Source: Victivallales bacterium
GTDB taxonomy: Bacteria; Verrucomicrobiota; Lentisphaeria; Victivallales; GWF2-38-69
DNA: 35,452 nucleotides
Direction of reading: 5' to 3'
Assembly (NCBI GenBank): GCA_021733985.1
Contig: JAIPJT010000028.1
Location: 1-35,452, forward strand
The position numbers were made by a program, and so were the translations under genes. Position 1 is the first letter of the stretch, and every line of letters begins with the position of its first letter. Shown piece after piece: positions 3,685 to 27,920 of the stretch. Below the pieces are notes generated by a model. That model was not told the DNA's origin. It worked only from the letters and a program-made list of their open reading frames with translations, and did not search any database.

Positions 3685-4356
3685 ATGGTGGTGGGAGGTG
3701 GATTCGCCATATCATCCGATATGGCGCCATGTTGGATAACATGGCGAACCTGATTTTTGATAATTTGTTGACCTAGAGTTTAGTTTTTTATAAATACGGG
3801 GGAAATATTTATTAATTTATAGAAAACGTATTGAAAGATTGTGATTTAAAAAATGGTGGTGGGAGGTGGATTCGCCATATCATCCGATATGGCGCCATGT
3901 TGGATAACATGGCGAACCTGATTTTTGATAATTTGTTGACCTAGTGTTTAGTCTTTTATAAATACGGGGAAAATATTTATTAATTTATAGAAAACGTATT
4001 GAAAGATTGAGATTTAAAAAATGGTGGTGGGAGGTGGATTCGCCATATCATCCGATATGGCGCCATGTTGGATAACATGGCGAACCTGATTTTTGATAAT
4101 TTGTTGACCTAGAGTTTAGTTTTTTATAAATATGGGGGAAATATTTATTAATTTATAGAAAACGTATTGAAAGATTGAGATTTAAAAAGTGGTGGTGGGA
4201 GGTGGATTCGCCATATCATCCGATATGGCGCCATGTTGGATAACATGGCGAACCTGATTTTTGATAATTTGTTGACCTAGAGTTTAGTCTTTTATAAATA
4301 CGGGGAAAATATTTATAAATTTATAGAAAACGTATTGAAAGATTGAGATTTAAAAA
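3685..4356 (-). repeat. 168-bp tandem array: tRNA-Tyr 3' ends opened by double hairpins
   Basis: Four head-to-tail units (3685-3852, 3853-4020, 4021-4188, 4189-4356), nearly identical and exactly 168 bp apart, run in register into the true tRNA-Tyr gene, whose 3' end is the next unit's start. On the minus strand each unit has an AT-rich spacer of about 106 bp, then GGTTCG, hairpin 1 CCATGTTATCCAACATGG, CG, hairpin 2 CCATATCGGATGATATGG, then CGAATCCACC and the rest of the tRNA-Tyr 3' end through CCA, followed by T6. In the leftmost unit the 21-base tRNA match is 3686-3706, hairpin 2 is 3707-3724 and hairpin 1 is 3727-3744. The hairpins sit exactly where the T-loop TTCGAAT would close. No open frame of note lies in the unit. 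A sister structure follows tRNA-Lys. Confidence 0.95.
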
Positions 4357-4357
4357 A

Positions 4358-4442
4358 TGGTGGTGGGAGGTGGATTCGAACCACCGAACTCTGAGAGGGC
4401 AGATTTACAGTCTGCTGCGGTTGACCGCTTCGCTATCCCACC
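4358..4442 (-). tRNA. tRNA-Tyr (GTA)
   Basis: A complete class II tRNA of 85 nt including encoded CCA. The acceptor GGTGGGA (5' end at 4442) pairs with TCCCACC (4362-4368), followed by discriminator A and CCA (4358-4360). The anticodon loop CTGTAAA gives GUA. The T-arm is GGTGG-TTCGAAT-CCACC and a long variable arm is present, as expected for tRNA-Tyr. Seven bases separate it from tRNA-Gly upstream. Its 3' end from CGAAT onward is repeated four times in the array immediately downstream. Confidence 0.95.
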
Positions 4443-4449
4443 TGAAAGA

Positions 4450-4523
4450 TGGAGCGGGCGAAGGGAATCGAACCCTCCTAATCAGCTTGGAAGGCTGGAG
4501 CATTACCACTATGCTACGCCCGC
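4450..4523 (-). tRNA. tRNA-Gly (TCC)
   Basis: A complete 74-nt tRNA including encoded CCA. The acceptor GCGGGCG (4517-4523) pairs with CGCCCGC, with discriminator T and CCA at 4450-4452. The anticodon stem CAGCC-TTCCAA-GCTG gives anticodon UCC. The T-arm is AGGG-TTCGATT-CCCT. It is the first gene of a two-tRNA transcript with tRNA-Tyr. Confidence 0.95.
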
Positions 4524-27732: not shown

Positions 27733-27808
27733 GGGTTGGTAGCTCAGCGGTAGTAGCACCTGCCTTTTAAGCAGGGGGTCCTGGGTTCGAATCCCAGCCA
27801 ACCCACCA
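27733..27808 (+). tRNA. tRNA-Lys (TTT)
   Basis: A complete 76-nt tRNA including encoded CCA. The acceptor GGGTTGG (27733-27739) pairs with CCAACCC (27798-27804), discriminator A, CCA 27806-27808. The anticodon loop CTTTTAA gives UUU, and the T-arm is CTGGG-TTCGAAT-CCCAG. Bases 27788-27808 are repeated exactly at 27900-27920. The 215 bp before it (27515-27732) show no gene; a protein-like frame running antisense through the tRNA is an artefact. Confidence 0.95.
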
Positions 27809-27850
27809 TATATATCAATGTAATTTAAGTAGTAGGTGGTCAGTTAAATA

Positions 27851-27920
27851 CTGGGTTCGCCACAGACATACGACTGTGGCACCATATCGAATGATATGGC
27901 GAATCCCAGCCAACCCACCA
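27851..27920 (+). mobile_element. Double-hairpin insertion in a duplicated tRNA-Lys 3' end
   Basis: Forty-two bases after the true tRNA-Lys, its T-arm and 3' end appear again with the T-loop opened: CTGGGTTCG (27851-27859), hairpin 1 CCACAGACATACGACTGTGG (27860-27879), CA, hairpin 2 CCATATCGAATGATATGG (27882-27899), then CGAATCCCAG and CCAACCCACCA (to 27920), followed by T8. The outer arms can pair across the T-loop, giving a three-way junction. The repeat offset is 112 bp. No coding capacity is present. Hairpin 2 shares its core with the array downstream of tRNA-Tyr. Calling it a mobile element is inference from the repeated architecture. Confidence 0.75.

Follow-up and report, generated by a model that had tools for sequence, protein, structure and literature searches.

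Hairpin-split partial tRNA copies beside tRNA-Tyr and other tRNA genes: a candidate small mobile element linked to GIY-YIG endonucleases

Downstream of a tRNA-Tyr gene in a Victivallales genome we observed an array of four short units, each carrying the 3' end of that tRNA with its T-loop split by two hairpins. Across nine genomes of the phylum, the same hairpin pair breaks partial copies of about 18 different tRNAs, and full-length units at some of these tRNAs encode a GIY-YIG endonuclease. We consider it likely that the Tyr array consists of stacked, ORF-less units of a small mobile element that is linked to a homing endonuclease and lodges in tRNA loops. The tRNA-linked family to which these units belong is broad and apparently undescribed.

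The window analyzed here is the whole 35,452-nt stretch of contig JAIPJT010000028.1 (assembly GCA_021733985.1). An initial annotation, made from the sequence alone, had described four exact head-to-tail units that continue in register into a true tRNA-Tyr gene. The arrangement was confirmed, with four in-register units downstream of tRNA-Tyr in its direction of transcription (Table 1), which Tandem Repeats Finder reported with 97% matches. Exactness held for length (168 nt each) but not for sequence, as any two units differ by 2-5 substitutions, falling in seven variable columns that all lie in the spacer; variation is zero in the tRNA 3' end and zero in the hairpins. Because the units differ among themselves, a simple assembly artefact is a less likely source of the array. 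Counted from the T-loop cut TTCG^AATCC, each unit comprises the tRNA 3' end (AATCCACCTCCCACCACCA), an AT-rich spacer ending in CAGGTTCG, hairpin CCATGTTATCCAACATGG, CG, hairpin CCATATCGGATGATATGG and CG. Read from the hairpins, this becomes GGTTCG-CCATGTTATCCAACATGG-CG-CCATATCGGATGATATGG-CG-AATCCACCTCCCACCACCA, with the last 19 nt of tRNA-Tyr present in every unit and the T-loop split by the hairpin pair. An Rfam scan returned only tRNA, plus one sub-threshold match.

Table 1. tRNA genes and hairpin-bearing units in the window.
Feature	Position	Strand	Remark
tRNA-Tyr(GTA), intact, host gene of the array	4358..4442	-	ARAGORN; Rfam tRNA 58.7 bits
tRNA-Gly(TCC)	4450-4523	-	
Tyr unit 1: tRNA-Tyr 3' end (common to intact tRNA), spacer, GGTTCG, two hairpins, CG	4209..4376	-	168 nt
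Tyr unit 2	4041..4208	-	168 nt
Tyr unit 3	3873..4040	-	168 nt
Tyr unit 4	3705..3872	-	168 nt
Terminal 19-nt copy of tRNA-Tyr 3' end, AATCC...CCA	3686..3704	-	
Unit 1 hairpin pair	4211..4248 (hp2 4211-4228, hp1 4231-4248)	-	
Unit 2 hairpin pair	4043..4080	-	
Unit 3 hairpin pair	3875..3912	-	
Unit 4 hairpin pair	3707..3744	-	
tRNA-Lys(TTT), intact, host of the second (single) unit	27733..27808	+	ARAGORN
Single tRNA-Lys unit: spacer, CTGGGTTCG, hairpins 27860-27879 and 27882-27899, CG, exact tRNA-Lys 3' end 27902-27920	27809..27920	+	

A whole-genome search with the pattern GGTTCG-N-CGAATCC recovered the Tyr units and two further true units, and the Tyr array is more than chance, since the reversed control pattern gave 0 matches. 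One of the further units lies in the window (112 nt, downstream of tRNA-Lys and with the tRNA-Lys 3' end); the other, on contig C14 of this genome, bears a tRNA-Pro 3' end 2.2 kb downstream of an intact tRNA-Pro(TGG). A covariance model of the hairpin unit, built from five units, found matches in 7 of the 137 genomes of the order and, in a 388-genome sample of the phylum, in two further genomes (G397 and G151). The unit-bearing tRNAs are Tyr, Lys, Pro, Ser(TGA), Ser(CGA), Arg(ACG), Arg(TCT), Arg(CCG), Cys, Met, Gln, Glu(TTC), Glu(CTC), Thr, Asn, Gly, Leu and Phe, the Phe partial copy being weak. The partial copy is nearly always that of the neighboring tRNA itself, and 18-nt 3' ends are exact in most units. 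Units mostly measure 77-372 bp, and at Thr, Gln and Glu of G006/G064 they form arrays of 2-4. The initial annotation had suggested an element that inserts at the T-loop and leaves the tRNA restored, an idea that would lose ground if no other tRNA shared the insert. Its recurrence at about 18 tRNAs supports the mobile-element half of the initial annotation, although mobility itself is something we infer from sequence. A scan of 85k genomes with GGTTCGCCAN{22,50}TGGCGAATCC gave 95 chance-like matches, none with hairpin-CG-hairpin plus a tRNA end, and the same pattern gave one chance match in viral contigs. Many relatives' assemblies have contig ends 50-400 bp downstream of tRNA-Tyr (L004, L006, L008, L020 and others), and repeats there may be under-assembled.

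The copied part of the tRNA is either the 3' end, split in the T-loop, or the 5' part, split in the T-loop or the anticodon loop. A 5'-part copy whose anticodon loop is split by the hairpins is found upstream of the intact gene at Ser(CGA) in G023 and in G027 and at Arg(CCG) in G397 (CTCG-hp-CG-hp-CGAAAA; CTCCG-..-CGGAG), and at tRNA-Asn of G397 nt 1-56 are copied with 56/56 nt matching and the T-loop split. Since copies can be the tRNA 5' part, tRNA mimicry is not the common theme: the other suggestion of the initial annotation, a tRNA-mimicking RNA that keeps a T-arm and CCA end, does not serve as a general explanation, as several loci copy the 5' part and have no CCA end. CG flanks the insert on both sides, which amounts to duplicating 2 bp of the loop core, TCGA or, in Arg, CCGG. 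Tandem duplication including the downstream flank was considered and rejected; similar flanks were seen only at Arg (G023) and weakly at Met (G151), and the repeats mostly end at or near CCA. Two further arrangements were noted at tRNA-Asn. In G006 (L235 1005-1660), the Asn 3' end is copied four times in tandem with periods of 124-157 nt, the T-loop insert being a different one, and two inverted Asn-type hairpin units about 1.2 kb apart flank a GIY-YIG fragment and tRNA-Asn in G023 (L181 1743-3037).

The stems of both hairpins are 7 bp long in 19 units, and their apex is conserved (GTCATCCGAC and its inverse). The lower stems covary, with 93% of cells paired and 39 double-change cells against a shuffled mean of 12.9; the stem covariation score was 0.321 vs 0.141, and slid controls were far lower. 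The motif scores on both strands, and since it is nearly palindromic, covariation of the stems cannot discriminate between DNA and RNA. Single hairpins sharing this apex are found elsewhere too: a repeat of about 165 bp with hairpin CCATATCATTCGATACGG is dispersed at 13 places in G000 (L339-L351), and single hairpins CCCAGTCATYCGACGGGG, identical in sequence to those in the tRNA units of the same genomes, lie away from tRNAs in G023 and G027 (L311, L312, L329, L336). For this reason the tRNA-loop hairpins may represent an independent palindrome family.

The units had initially been called non-coding, which is true of those at Tyr and Lys but not of the full-length units elsewhere. These are about 365-372 nt long, and each has an ORF of some 88 codons that encodes a GIY-YIG catalytic domain; intact versions match Pfam PF01541 with E 1e-13 to 1e-16. 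GIY-YIG ORFs lie inside units at tRNA-Cys (G006), at Ser(CGA) (two in G023 and one in G027), at Met (G066, frameshifted) and at Asn and Arg (both G397). The tRNA-Pro(TGG) unit of this genome holds a decayed GIY-YIG gene split by a DUF1670 gene pair. The short units lack a nuclease gene, and no significant GIY-YIG remnant was found in the Tyr and Lys spacers, so it is shared architecture only that points to their descent from full-length units. No integrase gene was seen in the units examined, which hold a GIY-YIG gene or no ORF.

When 388 genomes from the phylum were searched with the unit proteins, GIY-YIG homologues came to light in 46. A same-strand tRNA lay <=600 bp from the homologue at 17 of the 30 loci examined, and a tRNA on the opposite strand only at none of the 30. 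A simple density model gives an expectation of about 0.9% per locus, and the associated P value is only a guide because some of the 30 loci may be orthologous. Because the units behind the nuclease alignment (A3) had been found by their hairpins, the co-occurrence of hairpins and nuclease is partly circular. G397 is an independent case: found by the nuclease alone, it has the same hairpin pair in the tRNA copy beside both of its nuclease genes. G260 follows the same plan at Ser(GGA) with a different hairpin pair, and in G001 a GIY-YIG gene is followed by another, imperfect pair. Close relatives of the unit nuclease were not found in plasmid and phage records, and a literature search for bacterial GIY-YIG proteins with tRNA-Ser gave no relevant result. 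A GIY-YIG gene also adjoins the tmRNA gene of G000 (L265 977-1870, contig C9), where it lies between two near-identical direct repeats (about 125 bp) of the tmRNA flank, with no hairpins.

SegB, a free-standing GIY-YIG homing endonuclease of T-even phages, cuts within tRNA genes with the enriched motif RAWTSGAAC, and a tRNA segment was amplified in tandem through its activity (PMC13096335). The reverse complement of this motif, GTTCSAWTY, is T-loop sequence. The related SegA leaves a 2-nt 3' extension (PMC2988022), and a staggered cut of this kind, TT^CG^AA, would fit the CG duplication at the insert. The T-loop motif of SegB and a SegA-like stagger matching this duplication are the grounds on which we propose that the element lodges in tRNA loops through its GIY-YIG enzyme and that the ORF-less units depend on it. 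A full-length element of about 370 bp would combine a partial host-tRNA copy, a gene for a GIY-YIG endonuclease of about 88 aa and an inverted palindromic hairpin pair that splits the TCGA core of the tRNA loop (T-loop TTCG/CGAA or anticodon loop CTCG/CGAA). The enzyme would cut the tRNA gene in the loop with a 2-nt stagger around CG, and repair would insert the unit, yielding one intact tRNA, restored by the tRNA part of the unit, and one loop-broken partial copy. Units could then stack into arrays through the intact TTCGAA restored each time, or through unequal recombination between copies. Short units without a nuclease gene would need a helper; an apparently open GIY-YIG ORF follows tRNA-Pro(CGG) in this genome and runs to the contig end. 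The hairpins may protect the partial copy from re-cutting or serve as sites for the repair step. One point speaks against homing, in that a filled allele must resist cutting, yet TTCGAA persists in the intact tRNA.

A different origin is conceivable in which REP-like palindromes inserted independently into pre-existing tandem partial tRNA duplications, the GIY-YIG gene being a separate passenger with a preference for tRNA genes. The dispersed same-apex hairpins of G000, G023 and G027 would agree with this, as would extra single hairpins found within two tRNA copies away from the loop and the short spacers free of any GIY-YIG trace. We nevertheless regard it as unlikely. In G000 and G006, where about 70 tRNA loci were checked, each clear copy of a tRNA's own 3' end carries a loop insert and none is clearly insert-free; the same loop core is split, with CG duplicated; and in seven units a GIY-YIG gene, intact or damaged, sits between the hairpin-marked copy and the intact tRNA.

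Copies of tRNA 5' parts upstream of the intact gene, without a CCA end (Ser(CGA), Ser(GGA), Asn and Arg), are hard to reconcile with a transcribed tRNA-trailer RNA under selection, as proposed for the E. coli rtT RNA, in which hairpins and CCA end would be functional RNA parts. The patchy distribution and a motif scoring on both strands also count against such an RNA, and we find it distinctly unlikely, even though units are found downstream of the tRNA on its strand, the hairpin stems covary, variation in the array spares the tRNA end and hairpins, and E. coli rtT has a similar layout. Classic attachment sites include tRNA 3' ends and T-loops, and repeats that mostly end at or near CCA might accordingly be scars left by ordinary integrase-borne islands. 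Against this, the units examined show no integrase gene, mostly measure 77-372 bp and carry a GIY-YIG gene at most, and neither 5'-part copies nor tandem 77-168-bp arrays would be expected, leaving such scars a highly improbable source.

Several known systems share traits with the proposed tRNA-loop element. The E. coli K-12 tyrT/tyrV rtT repeats (rtT/RttR), as computed here, have a period of 178, carry AATCCTTCCCCCACCACCA, and read AAGGTTCG, a 68-nt hairpin-rich insert and AATCCTTCC. Like the Tyr array, they follow tRNA-Tyr as tandem units (178 bp, against 168 bp in the array), include its last 19 nt and break the T-loop at the same point (GGTTCG-insert-AATCC). Unlike it, they have another insert sequence (no TTCG-hp-CG-hp-CGAA) and no adjoining GIY-YIG gene, and within the region read they occur at tRNA-Tyr only. 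The Rfam RtT covariance model gave no match to the present units at gathering or at E<=0.1, and we therefore do not claim common descent. In G039, G057 and G053 (L007, L022, L035), other inserts, GC-rich and with multiple hairpins (GGTTCGACAG...CAATCC), break the T-loop of tRNA-Tyr 3'-end copies. Given the shared break point and these other inserts, the E. coli repeats may belong to something more general.

SegB is a GIY-YIG gene lodged beside tRNA genes, as are the genes in the full-length units and the one next to tRNA-Pro(CGG) in this genome, but the Tyr and Lys units have no such gene. SegB cuts tRNA genes at a T-loop motif and drives tandem amplification (PMC13096335), and both traits would be shared under the proposed model. 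It differs in being phage-borne, with a 666-bp gene, and it has not been described with a loop-broken partial tRNA copy or a hairpin pair. As in integrative elements with tRNA attachment sites, a tRNA part is carried and the gene restored, with an intact tRNA and an exact partial copy at many loci; unlike in those elements, no integrase is seen, the hairpin pair lies within the partial copy, restoration is both 3' and 5', and the size is about 100-370 bp. The two inverted hairpins, conserved apex and dispersed single relatives recall REP/REPIN palindromes, which differ from the present units in that the latter lie in tRNA loops with a copy of the cognate tRNA. In fungal mitochondria, endonuclease genes occur with duplicated ends of host genes, which are protein genes there, and double-hairpin elements are mobile DNA. 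The likeness would lie in the pairing of an endonuclease gene with a duplicated host-gene end and in mobile double hairpins.

On a broader and more tentative reading, which we hold to be possible rather than probable, minimal mobile elements consisting of one GIY-YIG domain, a hairpin pair and a captured tRNA half are widespread and move among tRNA genes by loop cutting, their ORF-less derivatives making tRNA-linked arrays and the E. coli tyrT rtT repeats being relics of the same process. This would offer a concrete role for many small GIY-YIG proteins in bacterial genomes, for which our literature search found no link to tRNA genes outside phages, and would supply an origin hypothesis for the E. 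coli repeats. Such an element would be near the size minimum for mobile DNA, targeting yet sparing the loops of tRNA genes. Should the nuclease require nothing beyond the T-loop, it would amount to a compact site-specific cutter directed at the part of tRNA genes whose sequence is most conserved.

The DUF1670 gene pair that interrupts the tRNA-Pro(TGG) unit was considered as a possible mobilizer and ruled out, because G009, G010 and G089 have pairs with shared ends where there is neither a tRNA nor a hairpin. A literature search found no mention of DUF1670. Several genomes (L037 6828-8578 on contig C14 of G000; L150, L151, L152) have two DUF1670 genes (Pfam PF07900) side by side in cassettes whose ends are similar, AGGGCAYTTGTCC... 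and ...GGACARATGCCCTT, and such paired genes look like an unrecognized insertion element.
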